Assembly: GCF_900107665.1 (NCBI RefSeq) | Contig: NZ_FNQT01000001.1 | Span: 45,742-109,741 of the forward strand | Direction: 5' to 3' | Source of the DNA: Haloplanus vescus | Lineage (GTDB): Archaea > Halobacteriota > Halobacteria > Halobacteriales > Haloferacaceae | DNA length: 64,000 nucleotides | Shown: positions 39,231-52,456 of the stretch, one piece after another | Layout: the number at the start of each line of letters is the position of its first letter | Position numbering within the stretch: position 1 is the stretch's first letter | Position numbers and translations under genes: made by a program | Notes under the pieces: generated by a model | Seen by the model: only the letters and a program-made list of their open reading frames with translations | What the model was told of the DNA's origin: nothing | Database searches by the model: none

Positions 39231-39668
39231 TCAGTCGTCGCTCTCGTCGGGACCGACGGCCAGCACGGAGACGGAACTCGTCCGGAGGACGCGTTCGGCG
39301 ACGCTGCCGACGAGATAGCGGTTCAGCCCCGACCGGCCGTGGGTGCCCATCACCACGAGGTCCGCGCCCGTCTCCGCGATGAGGGCTTCGAGTTCCGCCT
39401 CGATGCTCCCGTCGAGGACGTGTGTCGTCACCGACTCGACGCCCGCGTCTTCGACCGTCGCGCGACGGCTGTCGAGAATCTCTTGGCCCGTCTCTTCGAG
39501 TTCCGAGATGATGGTTCCGAGCGAGGGCGACGGCGCCGTAACTGGCTCTCTGACCACGTAGACCAGGTGGAGCGACGCGTCGTACATCGTGGCGAGCTCT
39601 ATCGCGTGTTCGAGCGCCTGGTCCGCGCACGCACTGCCGTCGGTCGGGTGGATGATCGTGTCGTACAT
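39231..39668 (-). CDS. UspA-family universal stress protein
   Basis: The 145-residue protein begins MYDTIIHPTDGSACADQAL and has a complete ATP loop GTHGRSGLNRYLVGSVAERVL near residues 109-129. It is the expected length for a single Usp domain. It lies convergent with the cysteine-synthase-like remnant, 4 bp away. Confidence 0.92.
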   Translation of the reverse strand: MYDTIIHPTDGSACADQALEHAIELATMYDASLHLVYVVREPVTAPSPSLGTIISELEETGQEILDSRRATVEDAGVESVTTHVLDGSIEAELEALIAETGADLVVMGTHGRSGLNRYLVGSVAERVLRTSSVSVLAVGPDESDD

Positions 39669-39872: not shown

Positions 39873-39956
39873 ATGGTCAGTATGGTTCGAGCATTCGGGG
39901 CAATCCGTCGGGACGACATCCCAAGGGGGGTAGTCGACGTGGGGGGTAACTCGTGA
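39873..39956 (+). CDS. 27-codon leader ORF coupled to the multidomain regulator
   Basis: The ATG at 39,873 (or 39,882) lies at the transcription start expected from the TATA-like element at 39,851-39,861. The frame runs 27 codons (MVSMVRAFGAIRRDDIPRGV...) and its TGA overlaps the GTG start of the regulator (GTGA). It would be translated as a leaderless peptide and could couple translation of the regulator. Whether the peptide itself matters is unknown. Confidence 0.45.
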   Translation: MVSMVRAFGAIRRDDIPRGVVDVGGNS

Positions 39957-41755
39957 GTCGGACGACGGAGGCCGACGACGCGGACGAGGGGGTCGAGTTA
40001 CACGACGCCGACGGCGAGGCGCCGACGATACTCATCGTCGACGACGACAAGGACCTCGCGGATACGTACAGCGTGTGGCTCTCCGACGACTTCGAGGTGG
40101 AGACTGCTTACGGCGGGGTGCAAGCGCGCAAGCAGATTCACGACGGCCTCGATTTGGTCTTGCTCGACCGGCGGATGCCGGGCATCCCGGGCGATCAGGT
40201 GCTCGAAGACATTCGCGAGCAAGAACTCGGCTGTCAGGTGGCCATGCTCACCGCCGTCGAACCGGACACGGACATCATCGACCTGCCGTTCGACGAGTAC
40301 CTCGTCAAGCCGGTGACGCAGGCCGAACTCCGGGAGGCCATCGACGACCTGCTCTTGCGACAGGGGTTCGACACCGAGGCGCAGGACTATTTCGCGATGG
40401 AATCGACGGCGAAAGCCCTCGATACGCGCGACGAGGAGAACCTCCGCGACCCGGACGCTGCGGCCGCCTTCGAAGCCGAGACGGCGGCAGCGGGCGACGC
40501 CGAGCAGATTCGCGAGATGAAAGAGCGGCTCGAACGCCTCCAGCGCATCACCTCCGTCATCCGCGATATCGACAAGCAGCTCGTGGTGGCGACGAGTCGC
40601 GAGGAAATCGAGCGGACGGTCTGTGAGCGCCTCGTCGAGTCCGACCCCTACGGGTTGGCGTGGATTGGCGACTACACGCTCAGTTTCGACCAGGTGAGGC
40701 CGAACGTCGTCGCCGGCGCGGACGACGCCTCTCTCGACGACCACCCCGTCGCCGACGGCGGCGGCGGCCCGGCCTCCAAAGCCGTCTCCTCCGGCGAGGT
40801 GCAGGTGGTCAACGACCTCTCCTCGGAGCGAGGGCAAGAGATGCTCGACCCACTCGAGTTCGCCGACGACGACCCCGGATACGCCGCCGGGGCTGTCGTC
40901 CCGCTGATATATCGCGACACCGTCTACGGCGTCTTGAACGTCTGTACCGACGACCGGGACATCTTCGACGAGCGCGAGATATCCGTTCTCTCGGAGCTGG
41001 GCGACAGCATCGCGAACGCCATCAACTCCGTCGAGAGCAAGCGCCTGATGCTCTCGGACACCGTCGTCGAACTCGAGTTCGACGTCGAGGACCAGTCCGA
41101 CGTCTTCATCTCGCTCTCGACGGAGACAGGGTCGCGCATCGAGCTGAAGAGTTTCGTCCCCGCCGCCGACGGCGAGCTCACGAGCTACGTCGAAGTCACC
41201 GGCGCCTCGACGTCGGCGTTTCTCGACGCGGCGACGGAGATGCCGGAAATCGAGAAAGTCCGGGGGGTCGGCGAGTCGAGCGAGGGCGGCCTCTACGAGT
41301 GTCGCGTCTCCGAGTCGACGGTCGTTCTCTCGCTCATCGACGCCGGCGCGAACGTGGAGTCGATGCGCGTCGACGAGGGACAGGGCCACGTCACCGCGAC
41401 AGTCGCGCCCGAGACGGACGTCCGGACGGTCGCCGAGACGATTCAGGAGTCGTTCGACGACGTGGACCTCGTCGCCAAACGCGAGGTGGAACGCGACTTC
41501 CAGTCGACGGCGGACTTCCGCCAGTCGCTCGAGAACCGCCTCACCGACCGCCAGTACTCGGTGCTCGAAGCCGCCTACGCCGCGGGCTACTTCGCGTGGC
41601 CCCGCGAGTCGACGGCGAAGGAAATCGCCGACTCGCTGGACTTGGCGCCGCCGACCCTCCACGAGCATCTCCGCGGCGCGAAAATCGAACTCATCGAGGC
41701 ATTCTTCGAGGAGACGGGCGAGTTCGAGAACGAGCGTCTGCGCGACGACGAGTGA
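39953..41755 (+). CDS. Receiver-HalX-GAF-Bat multidomain response regulator
   Basis: The 600-residue protein has an N-terminal acidic lead. The receiver domain is at 25-140 (IVDDDKDLADTY; phosphoacceptor Asp in LVLLDRRMP; LVKPVT), followed by a HalX-type helical part (140-200). A GAF domain (210-365) with ERLVESDPYGLAWIG follows, then the Bat-type GAF-HTH region (370-600) ending in an HTH_10 domain (LTDRQYSVLEAAYAAGYFAWPRESTAKEIADSL). It joins phosphorelay input, ligand sensing and DNA binding in one chain. Kinase partner unknown. Start is GTG overlapping the leader ORF. Confidence 0.88.
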   Translation: MSRTTEADDADEGVELHDADGEAPTILIVDDDKDLADTYSVWLSDDFEVETAYGGVQARKQIHDGLDLVLLDRRMPGIPGDQVLEDIREQELGCQVAMLTAVEPDTDIIDLPFDEYLVKPVTQAELREAIDDLLLRQGFDTEAQDYFAMESTAKALDTRDEENLRDPDAAAAFEAETAAAGDAEQIREMKERLERLQRITSVIRDIDKQLVVATSREEIERTVCERLVESDPYGLAWIGDYTLSFDQVRPNVVAGADDASLDDHPVADGGGGPASKAVSSGEVQVVNDLSSERGQEMLDPLEFADDDPGYAAGAVVPLIYRDTVYGVLNVCTDDRDIFDEREISVLSELGDSIANAINSVESKRLMLSDTVVELEFDVEDQSDVFISLSTETGSRIELKSFVPAADGELTSYVEVTGASTSAFLDAATEMPEIEKVRGVGESSEGGLYECRVSESTVVLSLIDAGANVESMRVDEGQGHVTATVAPETDVRTVAETIQESFDDVDLVAKREVERDFQSTADFRQSLENRLTDRQYSVLEAAYAAGYFAWPRESTAKEIADSLDLAPPTLHEHLRGAKIELIEAFFEETGEFENERLRDDE

Positions 41756-41759
41756 CCGC

Positions 41760-42680
41760 TCACAGCACGTAGGTCGGCGCATAGAGGGCGATACAGCCCA
41801 CCGCCGCCTTCCTGCTGATGCCGCCGTTGACGTAGAAGACAAGGACGACGAGCGTCGCGACGGCGAGCATATAGGTGCCCGAGGCCATCGTCGCCCCCAC
41901 CTGCTCGATGGCGTAGCCGTCGACGAGGGCGCCGAGGCCGAGCGAGAACAGCGGGTCGGTCACGTTGCTCCCGAACAGCGTGCCGATGGCGATGTCGCCC
42001 TCGTCGCGCCCGACGGCCAACGCGGCGATGACGATTTCCGGGGCGGTGGTCCCGAGTCCCGTCACGAGGCCGACGAGGTACTCGGGGACGGCGAGCGCCA
42101 CCGCCAGCGCGCGACTGTTGACCACCAGTAGGTGGCCGCCGACGACGACGAGGGCGAACCCGACGACGAGCCAGAGTCCGGCGCGGGCGAGCGACCGGTC
42201 GGGGTCGCGGTGGCGTTCGATGGCGCCGGCGTGTTCGCCGTCTCGAAGGCGCACGGCGACGAAGACGAGATACGCGGCGACGAGGCCCGCGCCCTCGACT
42301 CGGGTGAGCGTCCCCGACCGGAGACCGAGGAGCATGAGCGCCATCGCGGCGATCATCCCCACGCCGTACACCGTCACCTTCTCGCGGGACAGTCGGAGCG
42401 GCGAGAGGAGGGCGACCACGCCGACGCCGAGGGTGATCTGGGAGGTGGCGGAGCCGATGATGTGGCCGACGACGAAGTCGCCTGCGCCGTAGATTCCGGC
42501 GTAGACGGCAGTCGTCACCTCCGGAATCGAGCTGCCGATGGCGACGAGCGTTCCGCCGACGAGGAGTGTGGGGACGCCGAAGGCCTCGGCGATGGCGACG
42601 ACCGAGGAGACGACGCGGTCGGCGCCGAACAGGAGGATTGCGAGGCCGCCGAGGAGCGCGAGAGCGTGACCGAGCATCAT
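41760..42680 (-). CDS. CaCA-family sodium/calcium exchanger
   Basis: The 306-residue protein has ten predicted helices. The two alpha-repeats carry the ion-site motifs GSSIPEVTTA (residues about 49-58) and GTTAPEIVIA (about 212-221), each followed by GxNVTDP- or GSATSQ-type segments. It would exchange Ca2+ against Na+ or H+. ATG at 42,680 or the next at 42,677. It ends 4 bp from the convergent regulator gene. Confidence 0.9.
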   Translation of the reverse strand: MMLGHALALLGGLAILLFGADRVVSSVVAIAEAFGVPTLLVGGTLVAIGSSIPEVTTAVYAGIYGAGDFVVGHIIGSATSQITLGVGVVALLSPLRLSREKVTVYGVGMIAAMALMLLGLRSGTLTRVEGAGLVAAYLVFVAVRLRDGEHAGAIERHRDPDRSLARAGLWLVVGFALVVVGGHLLVVNSRALAVALAVPEYLVGLVTGLGTTAPEIVIAALAVGRDEGDIAIGTLFGSNVTDPLFSLGLGALVDGYAIEQVGATMASGTYMLAVATLVVLVFYVNGGISRKAAVGCIALYAPTYVL

Positions 42681-42800: not shown

Positions 42801-43379
42801 TCATTCAGCGTCCGACGCTGCGTACATCGGTTCGAGGAGGTTCTCGCGGCGCGTTCGCTGGGCGACCACGACGTCGTCGGCTAGCGCGTGTAGCTCGGCG
42901 ACCGTCTCCGGCAGTCCGACGGGGGCCGCACTGACCACGTCACAGCCATCGACGCGACCCAGTGCGGACGCGCAGGCTTTCATTGCCATCCCGTTTACGA
43001 GGCCGTCCGCGACGAGAGCGACGGTCCCCGCCGGCGTCGGGGTCGACTCGACGCCGTCGCGTTCGGTTCGTGCCTCGCGAAACGCTCGCTGCGTCTCGGC
43101 GTCGAGTCGGTCGTCGTCGACGCCGAACGCCTCGACCAGTCGGTCGTCGACCCACGCGTGCCCCGTGTCGGTCACGGCGCCGACGGGGAGGGACGGGTCG
43201 TCGCGCGAGCGAATCGGCGCCGCGGCCATCACGCCGAGAGTCGCATCGAACTGGTCGGCAATCGGTCGTGCGACCGGTCGTCCCGCCGTCGGGAGGGCGA
43301 AGACGACGTCAGGACGCAGCGACCGCTCGGCCAGTCGGTCGACGAGCGCCCGTCCCGCCGTGGTCCGGTCCTCGTACAT
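42801..43379 (-). CDS. Phosphoribosyltransferase-like protein with degenerate PRPP loop
   Basis: The 192-residue protein starts MYEDRTTAGRALVDRLAERSLRPDVVFALPTAGRPVARPIAD. It is similar over most of its length to the protein at 51,824. In that paralogue the PRPP-binding signature reads VVVVDDGVATGATARA; here the same place reads VALVADGLVNGMAMKA, losing the second acidic residue and the TGAT phosphate loop. It is therefore probably not an active PRPP enzyme and may be regulatory or decaying. ATG at 43,379 matches the paralogue's start. Confidence 0.72.
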   Translation of the reverse strand: MYEDRTTAGRALVDRLAERSLRPDVVFALPTAGRPVARPIADQFDATLGVMAAAPIRSRDDPSLPVGAVTDTGHAWVDDRLVEAFGVDDDRLDAETQRAFREARTERDGVESTPTPAGTVALVADGLVNGMAMKACASALGRVDGCDVVSAAPVGLPETVAELHALADDVVVAQRTRRENLLEPMYAASDAE

Positions 43380-43541
43380 GCTCGTCTGTTCGTGTCCGGA
43401 CGAATAACCGGCCGCCCTAACCGGCCGCCTCGCTCGCTCTCGCTTGGATACTTGGCCGCCCATTCAACTGTCCCTGTGCGAACAGATGGGTACGAAGCCC
43501 ACCGTGACGACGAACGCCGACCCCGTCCCCCCACCACCACA

Positions 43542-44105
43542 ATGGACCAGACACAGCACAGCGACTCGCCGACCATACTCGTCGTAGAGGACGACAGAGA
43601 CCTCGCGGACACGTACCGCCTGTGGCTCGAACCCGAATACGAGGTGCGAACGGCCTACACCGGCGCCGACGGCCTCGCGTGGTACGACCAGTCGGTCGAC
43701 GTCGTGTTGCTCGACCGACGAATCCCCGACCTGTCGGGCATCGAGGTGCTCCGAACCATGTCGAAACGCGACATCGACGACCAGAAGGCGATGCTCACCG
43801 CCGTCGAACCCGGCCGCGAACTCGCGGACCTACCCTGTGACGAGTACGTCACGAAACCCGTCTCGGAGGCGACGGTCCGCGAGACGGTTCAGGAACTCCA
43901 GATTCGGTCGCAACTCGACGACGACCTCCAGCGACACTTCGCGCTCACGTCGAAAATCGTCGCCCTCGAACAGAGCGATGCCGACGGGTCCAACGAGGCC
44001 CTCACCGAACTCCGGCGCGACGCCACCCAGATTCGGGCGCGCATCGACGACCGGTTCTCGGACCTCGACGACTTCGATTCGGCGTTCCTGACCCTGCAGC
44101 AGTAG
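43542..44105 (+). CDS. Response regulator with HalX output domain
   Basis: The 187-residue protein has a receiver at 10-120 (VVEDDRDLADTY; Asp in VVLLDRRIP; YVTKPVS) followed by HalX (about 122-180). It is closely related to the regulators at 389 and 39,953. It is convergent with the large PAS/GAF histidine kinase, 59 bp away, making the two candidate partners. Confidence 0.9.
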   Translation: MDQTQHSDSPTILVVEDDRDLADTYRLWLEPEYEVRTAYTGADGLAWYDQSVDVVLLDRRIPDLSGIEVLRTMSKRDIDDQKAMLTAVEPGRELADLPCDEYVTKPVSEATVRETVQELQIRSQLDDDLQRHFALTSKIVALEQSDADGSNEALTELRRDATQIRARIDDRFSDLDDFDSAFLTLQQ

Positions 44106-44164
44106 GTGGCTCGCGCGCCGACGCAGAGACACGTCGGCCCGGGTCGTCAGGGTCGCCGAGCGTC

Positions 44165-46942
44165 TCAGGCACGCTGGAATGTCAGGCGGAAGCGCGCGCC
44201 CTCGGGGTCGTTGTCCTCGACCGTAATCTCGCCGCCGTAGGAGTCCATAATCTCCCTGACGAGATAGAGGCCGAACCCGGAGCCCGGGTCGTCGAACGTC
44301 TTCGCCTCGCGCCGGAAGATGTCCGCCTTCTGTTCGTCGGGGATGCCCGGGCCGTCGTCGGCCACCGACACCACCACCTCGTCGTCGGTGGCGGTCACGT
44401 CAACCCAGACAGTCGGGTCGGAGTGTGGGTTGTGCTGGGCCGCATTGACGAGGACGTTGTCGAGGACTTCGCTGAGCAGGTCGTCGGCCACTACGTCGAC
44501 GGACGGAAGGTCGGCCACGTCGAACTCGGCTTCGGGGTGGCGGTCGCTCGCGTGCTCGACGCGCGTCTCGACGGCCTCCTGGATGTCGATGGGTCCGAGT
44601 TCCTGGTCGACGCCATCGTTCTCGCCGATGACCTTCGTAATCTTTCGAATCGTCTCGACGAAGTCTATCATCTCGCGGGTACGCCCGAGCGCGGTGTCGA
44701 GGTGGGTCGCCACTTCGAAGTCGACGCGGCCGTCGAGCATCTCCAGACGCGCCTCGACCACGTTGAGGCTGTTGAGCAGGTTGTGTCGGAGCAGGCGATT
44801 CATAAACTCCAGTCGGTTGCGCTCGCGCTGGAGTTCCCGGTCCCGCTCGACCGACGAGAAGGCGTAGGCGATGATGGAGCCGAGTCGCTGGAGGGCTTCG
44901 CGTTCTTCGTCGCTGAACGCCTCGCTTCGTGCCGAGTAGAGGTTCAGGGAGCCGCACATCTCACCGTCGTCAAGGAGCGGAATCGACGCCGCCGCGCGGT
45001 AGCCGTACTCGCGGGCGTGCTCGCGCCACTCCTCGTATCTCGGGTCGGTCTCCACGTCTGGGACGGCGTGCATCTCCCCGGTCGCGTGTGCACGGACGGC
45101 CGGTCCCTGCTCCCCGGGCGGGTCGTCCATCGAGAGCGTCACGTCGTCGAGATAGTCCTCGACGCCCGCTTCGGCGTCGACGACGACGTCGCCGTCCTCG
45201 ACGGTGCCTATCCACGCGAACTCGTAGGAGTCCGAGTCCGCGAGGCGCTCACAGATTAGCTCTCGAATGTCCTCCTGTGTCGACAGACCGAACATCGACT
45301 CCGAGAGGCCATGCACGAGCGAGTCGATGTCGCTGATAGCCGACAGTCGCTCGTGCTGGCGGCGAAGTTCCTCCTGTCCCTGATGGCGGTCGATGGCCGC
45401 GCCGAGGATGTTCGCGACCGACTGGACGAAGCTGACCTCGTGCTGGGAGAACTCCCGGCGTGCCGTGTCGTGGGTTCCGAGGACGCCCCACGGGTCGCCG
45501 GTTGGACCGACGATGGTGCTGATACCGCTCCGCACGTCGTGGTCGGTCAGGAGGTCGGGGCCGCTGAATCGCGTCTCGGTCGTGAGGTCGTCGACGACGA
45601 TTGGGTGAGTAGCGTCGAGAGTGTGCGCCGCCTGTGAGTCCCGGTCGACCGCCGAGACGGTCGCCTCGCCGACGATGCCCTCGTCCCAGCCGACGCCCTG
45701 CCGAAGCAGGAGTTCGTCGCCCGCATCCGTCAGTTCGAGCACCTTCGCGTAGTCGGTGTCGAGCGTCTCCGCGACCAGCCTCGCCGCCTCGTCCATCAGG
45801 TGGTCGATGTCCTGGGTCTCGAGCGCCTGCTTGCCGAGCTCCGTCACGACCTGCTGTTGCCGGATGCGGTCACGCAGTTCGCGCTCTCGCTCCTTCCGCT
45901 CTGAGATATCGCGGACGACGCCACAGCGCCCGGTACCCTGCGTGATAGAGAACGGCGTCACGCGGGCCTCGACCGAGAGGTGCTCGCCGCCTTTGGTATT
46001 GAGGTCGAACTCGATGGCGCCCTCTTCGCGTTCGCCGTCGAGCACTTCGGCGACGAGTTCCTCGGCCCGTTCGCCGATCCACTCGTCTCTGATGTGCGAT
46101 GGCTTCTTCCCGAGGAGTTCCTCGCGGTCGTAGCCCGTCATCTCACAGAGCGCCTCGTTGACGACGATGAAGCGGTCGTCGTCGCTGATGGCGTAGACGC
46201 CGTCTTCGACCGTCTCGACGATGCGCTCGAACAGTTCGAGTTTCTGTTCGCGCGCCTGCTCTTCCGTGATGTCGCGAACGATGCCGACGCGTTCGCCCGT
46301 CGGCAGGAGCGAGAACGTCGCCTCGGCGACCAGCGTCCCCCCGTCTTTCCGGGTGAGCGTCGCCGTCATCGTCGCCGTCTCTCGCTCCGTCTCGACGAGT
46401 TCGTCGTAGAGCGCCGCCGCCCGTTGTACCGTCTCCTCGCTGACGACGGTCGACACCGACGCGTCGAGGAGTTCCGTCCGGTCGTAGCCGAGCATCTCGG
46501 CATACGCCTCGTTGACCATCGCGAACGTGCCGTCCTCGTCGACGACGTAGATGCCCTCGTGGACCGTCTCGACGATGGTCTCGTAGCGTTCGAGTTCGCG
46601 TTCGCGCTCGCGTCGCTCCGTCACGTCGCGGAAGTAGACGGACAGCCCCGTCTCGGAGGGGTAGGCCGTCACCTCGAACCAACTGTCTAGCGGCGGGTAG
46701 TACTCCTCGAACGACACCGACTCCTGGGTCTCCATCGCCCGTTCGTACTCGTACTGGAACGTGGTGTCGACGGCCGCCTCGAACTCGTCCCAGACGCTCT
46801 CGCCGACGACGCTCTGGTCGACGTCCAGCACCTCCTCCGCCCGGTCGTTCAAATACGTAAATCGCCACGCGTCGTCGAGTGCGAAGAAAGCGTCGTCGAC
46901 GCGTTCGAACACTTCGTCTCTGCTGTCGTGAATTCCTGACAT
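44165..46942 (-). CDS. Multi-PAS/GAF soluble histidine kinase
   Basis: The 925-residue kinase has no membrane segment. Three PAS domains (about 10-120, 130-240 and 250-370) precede GAF domains (about 385-535 and 575-715). A dimerisation/His-phosphorylation helix (LLRHNLLNSLNVVEARLEML, His near 735) and HATPase_c (N-box DNVLVNAAQHN, G1 DDGPGI, G2 GSGFGLYLV) end the protein. The ATG at 46,942 is preferred over 46,975. It probably senses redox, light or small molecules in the cytoplasm. Likely partner: the HalX regulator at 43,542. Confidence 0.9.
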   Translation of the reverse strand: MSGIHDSRDEVFERVDDAFFALDDAWRFTYLNDRAEEVLDVDQSVVGESVWDEFEAAVDTTFQYEYERAMETQESVSFEEYYPPLDSWFEVTAYPSETGLSVYFRDVTERRERERELERYETIVETVHEGIYVVDEDGTFAMVNEAYAEMLGYDRTELLDASVSTVVSEETVQRAAALYDELVETERETATMTATLTRKDGGTLVAEATFSLLPTGERVGIVRDITEEQAREQKLELFERIVETVEDGVYAISDDDRFIVVNEALCEMTGYDREELLGKKPSHIRDEWIGERAEELVAEVLDGEREEGAIEFDLNTKGGEHLSVEARVTPFSITQGTGRCGVVRDISERKERERELRDRIRQQQVVTELGKQALETQDIDHLMDEAARLVAETLDTDYAKVLELTDAGDELLLRQGVGWDEGIVGEATVSAVDRDSQAAHTLDATHPIVVDDLTTETRFSGPDLLTDHDVRSGISTIVGPTGDPWGVLGTHDTARREFSQHEVSFVQSVANILGAAIDRHQGQEELRRQHERLSAISDIDSLVHGLSESMFGLSTQEDIRELICERLADSDSYEFAWIGTVEDGDVVVDAEAGVEDYLDDVTLSMDDPPGEQGPAVRAHATGEMHAVPDVETDPRYEEWREHAREYGYRAAASIPLLDDGEMCGSLNLYSARSEAFSDEEREALQRLGSIIAYAFSSVERDRELQRERNRLEFMNRLLRHNLLNSLNVVEARLEMLDGRVDFEVATHLDTALGRTREMIDFVETIRKITKVIGENDGVDQELGPIDIQEAVETRVEHASDRHPEAEFDVADLPSVDVVADDLLSEVLDNVLVNAAQHNPHSDPTVWVDVTATDDEVVVSVADDGPGIPDEQKADIFRREAKTFDDPGSGFGLYLVREIMDSYGGEITVEDNDPEGARFRLTFQRA

Positions 46943-47051
46943 ATTGCTGATACCCCCCGTCGCGGGCCACTGCATCGATGGCGCCGCACGACCCGTCTAC
47001 GTCGTCCGATACGGGTCACTGCGCTATCGACTACCCTCCTTATTCCAGTCA

Positions 47052-47069
47052 GAGTGATAAAAATCACTC
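47052..47069. promoter_or_regulatory. Inverted repeat upstream of the PAS/GAF kinase
   Basis: GAGTGAT-aaaa-ATCACTC, perfect 7-bp arms. The AT-rich centre reads as a TATA-like stretch on the minus strand, about 110 bases before the kinase start. Candidate operator. Confidence 0.45.
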
Positions 47070-47130
47070 GTCGCGCTGCTGGCGTGTCGAGCACCGTCAC
47101 TGCGTCTCGCGGGCAGTTCGAAAGGGGGGC

Positions 47131-47153
47131 CGCCGCGCCGAACCGGCGCGGCG
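47131..47153. other. Very stable GC hairpin
   Basis: CGCCGCGCCG and CGGCGCGGCG are separated by only AAC, giving a perfect 10-bp all-GC stem. No T-tract follows on either strand, so a simple terminator is not obvious. Could be part of a small RNA or a recombination hot spot. Confidence 0.55.
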
Positions 47154-47380
47154 AATAGGGGGGGTCGACGACGGGGGGCAGGCGTCCGCGGGGCGCCCGC
47201 ACGAGTGCTGCGAGTGGAGTCCTCCCCACCCGCGTCTAGATTGATACTCGCCGACCTCTTGGTTCGCTGGCCTATCGTCTTCGGCGGGGACGCGGCGACC
47301 AGTCGCCACAGCCGCCAGTCGGCGCCTCTGATGGGCGGTTAGGGCAGGCTTTTTTGGTCGCTAGCATCGAGTTTCACGTA

Positions 47381-48826
47381 ATGAACGGACCGGCAGGTAT
47401 CCGGTCTCGACGACTTCTCGCTGGCGGGAGCATCAGCCTTCTCGGCTGTCTGTTGCTCGGTGTTCCACTGTTCGACATCTGGGACGACGCCACGAACCTC
47501 TCGTGGGGGATTCTGACCACGATTGCGGAGAACGCGCTCTTTCTCGCCCTCGCCGGAGGGTTGGTCGTCGGCGGGGTGTGGCTCGTCCGAAGCGACTGGG
47601 CGACCGACCACGTCACGAGGGTAGCGCGTCGGACCGTCCTCGCGACTGTCGCCTTCGGCGCCCTCATCGCGTGGGCCGCCGGACTCCAGTTGCAGGTGAT
47701 GGGCGCGCTCAAGCCCTACGTCCTCGCGATGAACGGCGTCATCATCGGCGCCGTCACCTCCTTCGGCGTCAGCGTCGCCTCGACGCAGGCGACCGCGTAC
47801 CGGTCGGCGGCGGACGAGGAACGCACCCAACGGGAGTCGCTCGAACTGCTCTATCGACTCGCCAACGACCTGGAGAGCGCGACGACACACGAGGATGTCT
47901 ACGAGATAACCGACGCCAGACTCACCGACATCTTCGGCGCGACGCCCGTCCGGGTCGTCGTCGACGAGACGGTGGTCGTCGACACCGCCGAAGCGCCGCC
48001 CAGCGCCCAGCCAGCCGAGCGGGTTCCCATCGGCGAGCGCGGATGGATTGGACTCTGGGGCGACGACTTCGACGGCCACGACGTGGCCACCGCGGAGCTG
48101 TTCGGGACGCACCTCAACGAGGCGGTCCGGCGCATCGAGCGCGAGACGCGACTGCGCGAGGAGCGGGACATCCTCGAGTTCGTCAATCGGACGCTCCGGC
48201 ACGACCTGCTGGGCGACCTCTCGCTCATCGAGGCGCGACTTCGGCTCATCGACCGCAACGTCGCCTTCGAGAACCCCACGCACGCCGACCACGTCGAGGT
48301 ATCGCTGGACCGCGTCGACGACATGCACGAGTTCATCCGGACGATGCGGACGTACATGCAGGCGCTCCTCGCCGACGACCACACGCTCGAAGCGACGGCG
48401 CTCTGTCCCGTCATCGACGCCGAACTCGAAGACATCCGCGAGGAACACCCCGACGCGGTGGTCGAGCGCTCGTCGATTCCCGAGGTTGCCGTCCAAGCCG
48501 ATGACTTGCTCGACCACGTGTTCGCCAACCTGTTCCGGAACGCCGTCGAACACAACGACGCCGAGACGCCCGAGGTCACCGTCGACGCCGAACTTGTCGA
48601 CGGCGTGGTTCGGGTGACCGTCGCGGACAACGGCCCCGGAATCCAGCCGAGTCAGCGCGAGGACATCTTCGAACAGGGCGAACACGGCACGGAGAGTAGC
48701 GGGAGCGGCTTCGGCCTCTATCTCGTCAAGGACGCCGTCGAGAACTACGGCGGCGAGGTTCGGGTACGGGACAACGAGCCACGCGGCACCGTCTTCGAAC
48801 TCGACCTGCCCGTCGCGACCAGTTAG
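47381..48826 (+). CDS. Membrane histidine kinase with four-helix N-terminal sensor
   Basis: The 481-residue protein has four predicted transmembrane helices (about 15-32, 42-65, 80-105 and 112-135) joined by short loops. The loop after helix 1 contains the motif DIWDDATNLSW, conserved in the second kinase at 61,989. A linker/GAF-like region (150-250) leads to a phosphorylation helix (NRTLRHDLLGDLSLIEARL, His near 272) and HATPase_c (FRNAVEHND, DNGPGI, GSGFGLYLV). ATG at 47,381 is used; the earlier in-frame start adds only poor sequence. Ligand unknown. Confidence 0.85.
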   Translation: MNGPAGIRSRRLLAGGSISLLGCLLLGVPLFDIWDDATNLSWGILTTIAENALFLALAGGLVVGGVWLVRSDWATDHVTRVARRTVLATVAFGALIAWAAGLQLQVMGALKPYVLAMNGVIIGAVTSFGVSVASTQATAYRSAADEERTQRESLELLYRLANDLESATTHEDVYEITDARLTDIFGATPVRVVVDETVVVDTAEAPPSAQPAERVPIGERGWIGLWGDDFDGHDVATAELFGTHLNEAVRRIERETRLREERDILEFVNRTLRHDLLGDLSLIEARLRLIDRNVAFENPTHADHVEVSLDRVDDMHEFIRTMRTYMQALLADDHTLEATALCPVIDAELEDIREEHPDAVVERSSIPEVAVQADDLLDHVFANLFRNAVEHNDAETPEVTVDAELVDGVVRVTVADNGPGIQPSQREDIFEQGEHGTESSGSGFGLYLVKDAVENYGGEVRVRDNEPRGTVFELDLPVATS

Positions 48827-49800
48827 TCGAACGCGGGCAGCACCGACGCCCCCATCTCGTCGACGAACCGCTCCATGTCCGGCGTCGAGACGAGCAGTTC
48901 CACCTCGTCGAAGCCCGCCGCCTCGTGGCGCGCGATCAGGTCCCGAACCTCGTCGAGGTCGGTCGTGACGAGGCCCCAGTCGCGCCAGCGTTCGCGCGGC
49001 AGGTCCCGCGCCCGGCGCTCGATTTCCCGCGGGTCGGACACGTCGTCGTCGAAGTCGATGGCGAGGGTCCCCGTCCAGAACTGCGCCGCGTCCAGCGCGG
49101 CGTCCTCGGTGTCGGCGTAGGCGACGGTGGCCTGCTTGATGCGGTCGATGTCGTCGGCGTCGCGGCCGGCGGCGTCGGCCCCCTCGCGGAGCGCCGGCAC
49201 CAGCGTCTCTCGGTAGGTGTCGATATCGACGAGCGTCAGGAAGCCGTCGGCGTACCGCCCCGCCACCGTCGCCGTCTGCGGACCGTTGCCGGCGACGTAC
49301 AGCGGCGGTCGCGGCTCCGGGCGCGTGTACAGTTTCGCGCCGTCGAGCGTCCAGTGGTGGCCGTCGTAGTCGTGGAAGCCGCCCTCCCAGAGGCGGTCGA
49401 CGATTTCGCAGGCGTCGACGAGGCGCTTCCGGCGCTCCGGATACGACGGCCACTCGAAGCCGAGCGGTCGTTCGTTGAGCGCCTCGCCCGTCCCGAACGT
49501 GAGGTGGGTGCGACCGGGGTACATCGACTCCAGCGTGGCGACCCCCTGTGCGAGCAGTCCGGGGTGATACCGCGCGATGGGTGCCGTCACGCCCGTCCCC
49601 ATCCGGACGCTCTCGGTGCGTTCGAGCGCCGCGCCGAGCCACGGCCACGCCGCGCCACACGAGGCGCCCGAGTGCCACCACGGGTGGAAGTGGTCGCTCG
49701 TCCAGACGGTGTCGAAGCCGACGGCGTCGGCGTGGGCCGCAAGCGCCGCCAGCCGACCCGGTGCGTACTGCTCGTGTGGCGCGAACAAGCCGACGTTCAT
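48823..49800 (-). CDS. F420-dependent oxidoreductase, glucose-6-phosphate dehydrogenase-like
   Basis: The 325-residue protein has a luciferase-like TIM barrel: MNVGLFAPHEQYAPGRL, TVWTSDHFHPWWH, TFGTGEALNERPLGFEWP and GNGPQTATVAGRYADGF. The pattern matches the TIGR03557 F420_G6P group; the exact substrate is uncertain, since this group extends beyond glucose-6-phosphate. Start at 49,800 is canonical. It shares a TTAG stop tetranucleotide with the convergent histidine kinase. Confidence 0.82.
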   Translation of the reverse strand: MNVGLFAPHEQYAPGRLAALAAHADAVGFDTVWTSDHFHPWWHSGASCGAAWPWLGAALERTESVRMGTGVTAPIARYHPGLLAQGVATLESMYPGRTHLTFGTGEALNERPLGFEWPSYPERRKRLVDACEIVDRLWEGGFHDYDGHHWTLDGAKLYTRPEPRPPLYVAGNGPQTATVAGRYADGFLTLVDIDTYRETLVPALREGADAAGRDADDIDRIKQATVAYADTEDAALDAAQFWTGTLAIDFDDDVSDPREIERRARDLPRERWRDWGLVTTDLDEVRDLIARHEAAGFDEVELLVSTPDMERFVDEMGASVLPAFD

Positions 49801-49881
49801 ACGGGTCCTCGGAGCGCCACCCCCTTCGACCTGACTCCTAATCACCGGTGTCGATTTCAGGCCGGCGGCGGATGCCCCGGT

Positions 49882-50652
49882 ATGGTCGACGTGGCGCGAG
49901 CGGTCGAGCGCATGGAGTCGTTTCTCGCCGAGCAACTGGCCGACGCCGGCGCCGAGGGCTACGTCGTCGGCGTCAGCGGCGGCCTCGACTCCGCCGTCGC
50001 GACGACGCTCGCGGCGCGGGCCGTCGGCCCGGAGTCAGTGACGGGACTCGTCATGCCGGGCCGCCCGAATAGCGAGGCGAACATGGCCGATGCGCGGGCG
50101 CTCTGCCGTGACCTCGGCGTCGCGTTCGAGGACGTGTCCATCCAGCCAATCGTCGACGCCACCGAGGCACAACTCCCCTTCGAGCCAGCGACGCCCACGC
50201 TCGGGAACGTCCGGGCGCGGACGCGCATGGTGCTCGAATACGCGGTGGCCAACGAACACGACCAGCTGGTGCTCGGCGCGGGCAATCGCTCGGAGCGCTT
50301 GCTCGGCTACGTCACGAAGTACGGCGACGACGCCGTGGACGTCCAGCCGATGAAAGACCTGTACAAGTCGGACGTTCCCCAAGTCGCCCGGCACGTCGGC
50401 GTCGACGAGCGCTTCGTCGAGAAGACGCCGACGGCGGCGCTCTGGGAGGGACAGACCGACGAGTCGGAACTCGGCGCGGAGTACGAGACGATAGACACGG
50501 TGTTGCGCCGGGTCGTCGACGCTGACCAATCACCGGCACAGGTCGCGCGAGCCACGGGAATCGACCGGGAGATAGTCGACCGCCTCGTCGACCGGTGGCA
50601 GTCGTCGGCGCACAAACGCACCCAGCCACCCGGTCCGAGCCTCCGCGAGTAG
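49882..50652 (+). CDS. nadE: NAD synthetase
   Basis: This ammonia-dependent enzyme adenylates nicotinic acid adenine dinucleotide and forms NAD. The 256-residue protein has the PP-loop SGGLDSAVATTL near residue 33 and LGAGNRSERLLGYVTKYGD. It lacks the glutaminase domain and is of standard short NadE length. The ATG at 49,882 begins the domain; the open frame upstream has no protein character. It is divergent from the F420 oxidoreductase, abutting the receiver gene tail to tail. Confidence 0.93.
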   Translation: MVDVARAVERMESFLAEQLADAGAEGYVVGVSGGLDSAVATTLAARAVGPESVTGLVMPGRPNSEANMADARALCRDLGVAFEDVSIQPIVDATEAQLPFEPATPTLGNVRARTRMVLEYAVANEHDQLVLGAGNRSERLLGYVTKYGDDAVDVQPMKDLYKSDVPQVARHVGVDERFVEKTPTAALWEGQTDESELGAEYETIDTVLRRVVDADQSPAQVARATGIDREIVDRLVDRWQSSAHKRTQPPGPSLRE

Positions 50653-51048
50653 TTACTGGACTTCGGACAGCGTCTCGACGAGGTCGTCGCTATCGACGGG
50701 TTTCGTCAGATACGCGGCCGCGTCGCTGTCGTCCAAGTGGTCGTCGGGTTCGAAGGCGCTGAGGACGACGACCGGTCCCTCGAAGGGCGTGTCGTCGAGG
50801 CGGTCGATGACCTCCGGGCCGGAGAGGTCGGGCATTCGGCGGTCGAGCACCATCGCGTCGACGCTGTCGTCGAGTTTCGAGAGCGCCTCGGAACCGCTCG
50901 ACGCCGTTCGCGTCTGCCACGGGCTATCCGCCAGCCACAGCGTCAGCGTCTCGCGAAACGCGTCGTCGTCGTCGGCGACGAGGACGGTGTCCGTCTGCGA
51001 CGAGTGTCGGTCCGCGGACGTGTCGGTGGGTGTTTGGTTCGGGGACAT
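50653..51048 (-). CDS. Receiver-only response regulator
   Basis: The 131-residue protein has an acidic Thr/Ser-rich lead (residues 1-22) and a single receiver domain with VLVADDDDAF, the phosphoacceptor Asp in AMVLDRRMP near 72 and YLTKPVD. It ends directly after the domain, without HalX or DNA-binding output. It may act as a phosphate sink or by protein contact. The start at 51,048 (MSPNQTP) is preferred; the frame opens further upstream with no domain. Confidence 0.85.
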   Translation of the reverse strand: MSPNQTPTDTSADRHSSQTDTVLVADDDDAFRETLTLWLADSPWQTRTASSGSEALSKLDDSVDAMVLDRRMPDLSGPEVIDRLDDTPFEGPVVVLSAFEPDDHLDDSDAAAYLTKPVDSDDLVETLSEVQ

Positions 51049-51114
51049 CGGTGGTGTCTCGCGTGTCGTGGACGCGAGCCCGCGGCGATGCGCGGTGGGG
51101 GGACCTCGCAACGT

Positions 51115-51134
51115 CACTCGACGGTCGTCGAGTG
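51115..51134. promoter_or_regulatory. Perfect 9-bp inverted repeat upstream of the receiver gene
   Basis: CACTCGACG-gt-CGTCGAGTG lies 67 bases before the receiver gene start on the minus strand and 178 before the UspA start on the plus strand. It may be an operator or a transcript hairpin. Confidence 0.45.
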
Positions 51135-51248
51135 AGGTGCAGCCACTTACGACGAGTCGTTCAGACCAACGATTCGTGCGGGCATAAGTGTTGTCAGCCA
51201 TTCGACTTCGCCACCCGTTCGCCCGCTCTCGACGGCCAATCACCGCCG

Positions 51249-51290
51249 ATTATCGCACGAAGTGATAATTAGGTAGCACTATTATACTCT
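51249..51290 (+). promoter_or_regulatory. UspA promoter with upstream near-palindrome
   Basis: The near-palindrome ATTATCGCAC/GTGATAAT (51,249-51,269) sits just upstream of the TATA-like CTATTATACTC (51,279-51,289). The ATG at 51,312 lies about 28 nt from the TATA centre, so the GGAGGG between them is probably outside the transcript rather than a ribosome-binding site. Confidence 0.5.
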
Positions 51291-51311
51291 CCCGGAGGGA
51301 GGACTCAGAAG

Positions 51312-51743
51312 ATGTACGAGTCGATACTCGTTCCCGTCGACGGAAGTGAGCCGAGTGACGCCGCTGTCGAACACGCCTGTAGCATCGCGGGCGGTGACGA
51401 CGCCACGGTTCACTTGGTACACGCCGTGGAACACCCGGACCGGGGCATGATGGGCGGTCGCGTCCCCGAAACCATCATCGACGAACTCTGGCAGGAAGGC
51501 GAAGACGTCGTCGAGGCGGCCGCGGAGACGGTGCGGGACGCCGGTCTCCACGCCGAAACTGTCGTCGTCGAGGGGTCGGCGCCCGAGGAAATCGGCGACT
51601 ACGCCGAGACACACGACGTCGACCTCGTCGTCATGGGGACCCACGGTCGGAGCGGACTGGAGCGATATCTGCTCGGGAGTACGACCGAACGGACGATTCG
51701 GACGGTCCACCGCCCCATGCTGACGGTCGAATCGCCGCCGTAG
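51312..51743 (+). CDS. UspA-family universal stress protein
   Basis: The 143-residue protein starts MYESILVPVDGSEPSDAAV and carries GTHGRSGLERYLLGSTTERTI, a complete ATP loop. It is the first gene of a same-strand group with a phosphoribosyltransferase and a DUF7563 zinc protein. Confidence 0.92.
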   Translation: MYESILVPVDGSEPSDAAVEHACSIAGGDDATVHLVHAVEHPDRGMMGGRVPETIIDELWQEGEDVVEAAAETVRDAGLHAETVVVEGSAPEEIGDYAETHDVDLVVMGTHGRSGLERYLLGSTTERTIRTVHRPMLTVESPP

Positions 51744-51823
51744 TCTCGGTGAAATCGTTCTTTTCGCGGTGTGTACGGCCGATAGGCAACGACTTTTTGC
51801 GTCGGCGCGACCCGTTCTCGGCC

Positions 51824-52456
51824 ATGTTCGAGGACCGAGCCGAGGCCGGCGAGCGACTCGCGGCGACGCTCGCGGACCGCGACATCGGGGCCGACCTCGT
51901 CCTCGCGATTCCGCGGGGCGGACTCCCGGTCGCTCGCCCCGTGGCGGACCGACTCGACGCACCGCTGGACATCGTCGCCGCGAAGAAGCTGGGGATGCCG
52001 GGCAACGCCGAGTTCGCCATCGGCGCCGCCGCCAGCGACGGTAGCGTGTGGCTCAACGACGATATCATCGACCGACACGATATCGACGAGTCGTATCTCG
52101 ACCAAGAACGAACGCGGGCCGCCGAGACGGCCCGGGAGAAAATCGACCGCTATCGCGGTGCCCGCGACCCGCCCGAGATGGCCGGCAAGACGGTGGTCGT
52201 CGTCGACGACGGCGTGGCGACGGGGGCGACGGCCCGCGCCTGCCTCCGACAGGTCCGGAACGCCGGTGCGGAACGGGTCGTGCTCGCGGTACCGCTCGGC
52301 CCGCCCGACTCCCTGCGTGACCTCGAATCGGCGGCCGACGCTGTCGTCGCCGTCGCGGAACCCCAACCGTTCAACGCCGTCGGCGCCCACTACCGCACCT
52401 TCGGGCAGGTGACCGACGAAGAGGCGATGGCGTATCTCGGGTGGGTAGCTGAGTGA
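51824..52456 (+). CDS. Phosphoribosyltransferase family protein
   Basis: The 210-residue protein has the PRTase type I fold: VLAIPRGGLPVARPVAD, VAAKKLGMPGNAEFAIGA and the PRPP loop VVVVDDGVATGATARACL. All signature residues are intact. It resembles the erythromycin-esterase-linked PRTase-like proteins common next to stress genes; substrate unknown. The TATA-like CTTTTTGC near 51,793-51,800 fits the ATG at 51,824. The degenerate paralogue is at 42,801-43,379. Confidence 0.85.
   Translation: MFEDRAEAGERLAATLADRDIGADLVLAIPRGGLPVARPVADRLDAPLDIVAAKKLGMPGNAEFAIGAAASDGSVWLNDDIIDRHDIDESYLDQERTRAAETAREKIDRYRGARDPPEMAGKTVVVVDDGVATGATARACLRQVRNAGAERVVLAVPLGPPDSLRDLESAADAVVAVAEPQPFNAVGAHYRTFGQVTDEEAMAYLGWVAE

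Follow-up and report, generated by a model that had tools for sequence, protein, structure and literature searches.

A degenerate phosphoribosyltransferase paralogue in a signalling gene island of Haloplanus vescus: a candidate pseudoenzyme

Results

The Two Phosphoribosyltransferase Genes and Their Surroundings

The window, i.e., the whole stretch of 64,000 nucleotides of the Haloplanus vescus genome (G000, 2.78 Mb) analyzed here, carries two genes of the TT1426-like phosphoribosyltransferase family, 8.4 kb apart. The first one, called D2 below, is located on the minus strand, its start codon being at position 43,379 and its end at 42,801 (the strand is corrected here relative to the initial annotation), and encodes a degenerate protein of 192 amino acids with a phosphoribosyltransferase fold, as judged from its sequence and predicted structure. 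The D2 frame is intact from its MYEDR start, and the upstream reading stays open for 28 more codons. The second, canonical gene (51,824–52,456, plus strand) encodes a protein of 210 amino acids in which the motifs, including the VVVVDDGVATGATA loop, are intact. The two proteins, which had been described as alike from their first residues (MYEDR/MFEDR), are homologous, showing 36% identity over 169 columns (E 1e-25), and both match the sequence of TT1426 (PDB 1wd5), a predicted type I phosphoribosyltransferase of Thermus thermophilus, with E values of 3.2e-9 for D2 and 1.5e-43 for the canonical protein. Searching the genome with the canonical protein retrieved both genes; the three other matches were weak, with E values between 0.008 and 0.44.

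Several genes predicted to be involved in signalling surround D2. A Na/Ca exchanger-family gene (41,760–42,680, minus strand) follows D2 in the same orientation, and a REC-HalX response regulator gene (43,530–44,105, plus strand) is divergent from it. Farther out are the genes encoding a REC-GAF-BAT-HTH_10 regulator (39,953–41,755, plus strand), a PAS/GAF sensor histidine kinase-like protein (44,165–46,975, minus strand), a second kinase-like protein with a HATPase domain (47,354–48,826, plus strand), a luciferase-like monooxygenase-family protein (48,823–49,935, minus strand), which we take to use F420, and a response regulator consisting of a REC domain only (50,653–51,243, minus strand). 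Universal stress proteins are encoded at 39,231–39,668 (minus strand) and at 51,312–51,743 (plus strand), the latter directly upstream of the canonical phosphoribosyltransferase gene. An NAD synthase gene (PF02540, 252.9 bits; 49,852–50,652) is located between the luciferase-like and REC-only genes and ends about 1.2 kb before the canonical gene. The HalX domain is reported to have no documented function (PMC5847659).

The predicted structure of D2 shows the full fold (pLDDT 87.2, pTM 0.85), apart from residues 181–192, which are poorly predicted. The best structural match was TT1426 itself (Foldseek E 1.3e-12; Z 21.0, rmsd 3.0, 189 residues aligned), the next-best match having a Z score of 13.1. 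D2 therefore resembles TT1426 over its whole length in both sequence and fold.

Distribution and Phylogeny of the D Branch

When the 170 genomes of the family were searched with D2, four loci in three genomes were retrieved with scores of 186 to 402 bits, the next match having a score of 110 bits; the same four loci stood out (334 to 370 bits, next match 155) when 392 genomes of the order were searched with a profile. The carriers of these genes, referred to here as the D branch, are thus the window genome, Halorubrum saccharovorum, which has two copies, and Halorubrum persicum (3/170 family genomes). A scan of one genome per species likewise identified H. persicum C49 and H. saccharovorum DSM 1137 (two loci) as carriers, and the three remaining matches were 34 to 37% identical. 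In H. saccharovorum, both D copies and the canonical gene are on one contig. Among plasmids, 82 records matched, all with less than 60% identity (39% in the best case listed). Scanning viral contigs with the D alignment gave 30 pattern matches and no relative, and a viral origin of D was rejected on the grounds that no relative was present among the contigs scanned.

Phylogenetic and residue analyses used 59 aligned proteins, four from the D branch and 55 canonical. The canonical rows are the best matches with loci fetched, a subset of all the matches found. Duplicates of two D genes, the window D2 and one H. saccharovorum D1 (L002 and L063), as well as a phosphoribosyltransferase of a different kind (L005), were left out. 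In the tree of these 59 rows, the D branch received full support (100/100) and was divided into two groups: D2 (96/85), which includes the window gene and one H. saccharovorum copy, and D1 (90/75), which includes the H. persicum gene and the other H. saccharovorum copy. In this tree, the H. saccharovorum D2 and canonical rows were flagged for their long branches. When the loop columns were removed (16 rows), the support was moderate (D2 84/73, D1 87/80); two alternative topologies inside D gave p-AU values of 0.39 and 0.22, and one was borderline (p-AU 0.043). Since two of these alternatives to the D1/D2 split are not rejected without the loop columns, the loop core was perhaps lost twice; a single loss is favored by the neighboring genes, because both D2 genes diverge from closely related REC-HalX genes.

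A clade uniting the window D2 with the window canonical gene was rejected in the 16-row tree (p-AU 8.5e-77), and the same test ruled against a recent duplication of the neighboring active gene as the origin of D2. The duplication proposed in the initial annotation stands in the sense that D2 is an old paralogue, but its sister is not the active gene located 8.4 kb from it. On the strength of these sequence comparisons, D2 belongs to a divergent branch and did not arise recently from the active gene.

Residues Lost in the D Proteins

The initial annotation had quoted the two loops exactly. The former PRPP loop of D2 (residues 120–133, 42,981–43,022, minus strand; identified by alignment and a frame check) reads VALVADGLVNGMAM and is in frame. 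This odd sequence is not explained by a frame slip, since its D, G, and G line up with those of the canonical loop and, by eye, nothing loop-like was seen in either of the other frames of the D2 strand.

The residues R31, K55, D128, D129, T133, G134, and T136 (numbered as in the canonical protein of the window) are invariant in all 55 canonical haloarchaeal rows of the alignment, so that the loss of catalytic residues proposed for the first copy is real with respect to the family. It also goes deeper than was previously noted, as the pyrophosphate residues are missing too. R31 and K55 align with Arg32 and Lys56 of TT1426, which are reported as likely pyrophosphate binders (PMC2427199), and both are lost in all four D proteins. 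In the window D2, they are replaced by T31 and P55, the former in what was the pyrophosphate loop (residues 29–33, 43,281–43,295, minus strand), where the canonical PRG has become PTA in the alignment, and the latter in the former K-x-G-x-P-x-N-P-E segment (residues 53–63, 43,191–43,223, minus strand), where the alignment shows that N61 and E63 are lost as well. D2 therefore lacks the pyrophosphate arginine and lysine that characterize the TT1426-like phosphoribosyltransferases, while TT1426 and the 55 canonical rows keep both of these residues and the PRPP loop; most of the canonical C-terminal tail is also absent from D2.

The loop itself separates the two groups. D128 and T133 are lost in the two D2 rows only, and T136 in three of the four D rows (both D2 and the H. 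saccharovorum D1), whereas canonical A132 is replaced by V or I in all four. At positions D128, D129, T133, G134, and T136, the window D2 has A, D, N, G, and A, respectively. The two D1 proteins keep VDDGIVTGT, and hence the DDGxxTG core, although the D1 loop is not fully canonical because T136 is lost in H. saccharovorum. VDDGIVTGT is not kept in the two D2 proteins, and the loop of the window copy, ADGLVNGMA, does not show the two acidic residues plus TGxT of a type I PRPP loop. The scores with the Pfam family PF00156 decrease accordingly: 70.7 and 68.1 bits for canonical proteins, 32.6 and 32.9 for D1, and 20.2 for the window D2, with a cut-off of 26.3; the H. saccharovorum D2 has no Pfam match.

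The D proteins might be enzymes with a changed chemistry or substrate for which PRPP is not needed, since D2 keeps the second aspartate and the loop glycines, D1 keeps the DDGxxTG core, and the D-specific invariant residues, which include R57, T70-D71-T72, and R101, could make a new site. We regard this as unlikely, in view of the loss of the pyrophosphate residues and loop threonines in D2 and of the fact that no other family was found above the cut-off in the Pfam scans of the four D proteins. The model of GfcR (NF045507), a haloarchaeal transcriptional regulator, gave weak matches with the canonical protein and with D2, the latter scoring 14.6 bits, far below the equivalog cut-off of 300. 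GfcR also differs from D2 in having a DNA-binding domain.

Relationship with the Canonical Gene

In the draft genome of H. persicum (97% complete), D1 is intact, whereas the one canonical gene detected has decayed to a remnant (L074:2884–3287, in G331 C83), from which the N-terminus and the PRPP-loop stretch are missing and in which the frame changes. The remnant adjoins a frame resembling a carbamate kinase (named by eye), as does the intact canonical gene of H. saccharovorum. D1 therefore appears to be independent of the canonical protein, and this case argues against the idea that the degenerate copy acts by dimerizing with the active one. The idea that D2 pairs with the active copy in a heterodimer and thereby regulates it does draw some support from the intact canonical gene present in both genomes with D2, about 8.4 kb away in the window and 4 kb away in H. 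saccharovorum C69. It is nevertheless doubtful that such a heterodimer exists: D2 and the canonical gene are not sisters, and no D-level match occurs in 88 of the 91 family genomes in which the search reached E 1e-10 or better, which means, as judged from the part of the matches that was aligned, that the canonical type usually occurs alone. In addition, a study on Trypanosoma brucei reports that APRT2 is nearly inactive and that mixing it with APRT1 gave no catalytically active heterodimer (PMC8836349). A pairing of D2 with the canonical protein is thus a weak proposal but not a dead one, since the H. persicum D1 still has a PRPP loop and both of the genomes carrying D2 also have an intact canonical gene.

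A Gene Island Shared by the Carriers

The exchanger, the REC-GAF-BAT-HTH_10 regulator, the PAS/GAF kinase, the second kinase, the REC-HalX regulator, and the stress proteins form an island common to the three carriers; the luciferase-like gene was seen in H. saccharovorum but not in the 19.8 kb covered at the H. persicum locus (L064). In each of the three carriers, the exchanger gene adjoins a D gene. In H. saccharovorum, D1 adjoins the exchanger gene and D2 the HalX gene, which diverges from it as in the window; in the window, the single D2 gene lies between the two. An alignment of the D2–HalX intergenic stretch with its H. saccharovorum counterpart showed, by eye, no convincing conserved block, and no shared promoter is therefore claimed. 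In the H. persicum locus, the BAT-type regulator occupies two overlapping frames (L064:11676–13399), reflecting either a broken gene or an error in the draft sequence, and the HalX frame (L064:7540–9102) is 520 amino acids long, with about 330 residues ahead of the receiver domain, which probably correspond simply to an open upstream reading frame.

Parts of the island also exist without D. Relatives of the exchanger occur in 29 of the 170 genomes, three of which carry D, and a HalX relative (55%) was found in G328. In another genome of the same genus (G293, C1:1429433–1437749), matches to the PAS kinase, three stress proteins, the exchanger (56%), the luciferase-like protein (66–67%), and the canonical phosphoribosyltransferase (75%) stand in a row with no D-level match, which suggests that a wider functional link may exist among these genes. 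Apart from the window's own locus, 54 canonical loci were inspected (one with 20 kb of flanking sequence, the other 53 with no more than about 1.5 kb): a stress-protein gene was found nearby in 3/54 and an exchanger gene in 0/54. The arrangement observed in the window is therefore not general, and a regular link between the canonical gene and stress-protein genes was rejected.

Selection and Shifted Constraint

With a branch codon model (190 codons, eight sequences, D1/D2 topology fixed, two starts per fit), omega = 1 was rejected both for the window D2 branch (lnL −3636.77 vs. −3619.87, 2 delta lnL 33.8, p 6e-9) and for D2 as a class (lnL −3684.16 vs. −3621.72). The omega values are unusable as such because the synonymous sites are saturated and some branch lengths are at their upper bound, and the test would miss a function lost only recently and only in the window lineage. 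The intact frame of the degenerate copy pointed out initially is thus kept by selection, and neutral drift, which had been named as the observation that would speak against a new role, was not what the test indicated (2 delta lnL 33.8, with saturated synonymous sites). The differences between the two D2 genes per codon position amount to 0.307, 0.312, and 0.500. D2 combines lost catalytic residues (alignment) with retained purifying selection (codon model), as expected of a pseudoenzyme.

The constraint has shifted away from the catalytic loops and toward residues 70–104 (43,068–43,172, minus strand), which span helix 79–85 and most of helix 89–107 in the D2 model. This segment contains 19 of the 64 columns that are invariant in D, a count based on four sequences from three species, whereas canonical quartets of similar divergence (14,177 kept of 60,000 drawn, mean identity up to 0.58) have on average 7.2 and at most 15 invariant columns there. 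Conversely, the pyrophosphate and lid segments have 6 invariant columns in D, as compared with a mean of 16.0 and a minimum of 11 in the canonical quartets. Since the segment was chosen after looking at the data, all possible windows were scanned: no canonical quartet reached the excess observed in D (0/9,443 with 20 residues and 0/9,551 with 35 residues), these counts not being probabilities because the quartets overlap.

That D2 is a gene in late decay, under relaxed selection, unbroken so far, and with no function, is improbable: it would fit the long terminal branches of D2 (0.62 and 0.78, about three to four times longer than the 0.18 and 0.21 of D1), its poorly conserved and poorly predicted C-terminus (identity about 0.25 in residues 171–190), and its Pfam scores, below the cut-off or missing, but not the rejection of omega = 1, the D2 frames intact in two genera, the unusual conservation of residues 70–104, or the form that decay takes in this family, as illustrated by the frame change and missing N-terminus of the H. 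persicum canonical remnant.

Discussion

The reading we favor, and consider somewhat more probable than its negation, is that the D2 gene encodes a non-catalytic protein with a phosphoribosyltransferase fold, a pseudoenzyme kept by selection, the losses having likely occurred stepwise. A loss of catalysis accompanied by a selected new role is well supported, because catalytic residues have been lost, neutrality is rejected, the constraint has moved, and the island is shared; the absence of catalysis itself is predicted from the sequence. The signs of selection together with the sensor-kinase genes around it suggest that D2 is now probably a non-enzymatic signalling or binding protein, and the neighboring genes point to a regulatory role.

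After an old duplication, the D branch would have lost the pyrophosphate-binding arginine and lysine while keeping the PRPP loop core, as in D1, and a later copy, the D2 of the window and of H. saccharovorum, would have lost the loop core too. D1 might then be a binder of PRPP or of a nucleotide. D2 might contact other proteins via the conserved 70–104 segment and so serve the island, with its two-component, exchanger, and stress proteins, as an adaptor or a sensor subunit. A more far-reaching proposal, which we put forward tentatively, is that the D branch is an enzyme turning step by step into a signalling part, from the canonical form to D1, which may hold PRPP, and then to D2, which has no substrate site, selection having shifted to helices 79–107 as a new interface to the two-component and cation-exchanger module.

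Comparable cases are known. The phosphoribosyltransferase domain of the Bacillus PurR, which has no activity, is reported to sense PRPP and ppGpp (PMC8789054). This effector domain has the fold without the enzymatic activity, as predicted for D2, and is used for regulation; it differs from D2 in that it binds these ligands and is fused to a DNA-binding domain, whereas D2 is a single domain that has lost its loop. The APRT2 of T. brucei and the yeast APRT2 cited along with it are inactive or nearly inactive paralogues of an active enzyme, as predicted for D2, but they are eukaryotic adenine enzymes of another subfamily, and no such gene neighborhood is mentioned in the sections available (PMC8836349). 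Among the matches listed in a literature search lying mostly outside subscription journals, none dealt with a degenerate branch of the TT1426 type in haloarchaea. Nothing was found on COG1926, and little on the function of the active TT1426-branch members in the literature searched.

Non-catalytic regulators with a phosphoribosyltransferase fold were thus already known, and what is new here is D as a narrow non-catalytic branch of this known fold. Apparent intermediate stages of the process survive in a few haloarchaea, the pyrophosphate residues having apparently been lost first and the PRPP loop later. Since these apparent stages survive, and since D1, D2, and the canonical gene occur together on one contig of H. 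saccharovorum, the order of the losses and the gain of a new conserved surface are open to testing. The D branch also points to a tie between the TT1426-like family and stress signalling in haloarchaea.
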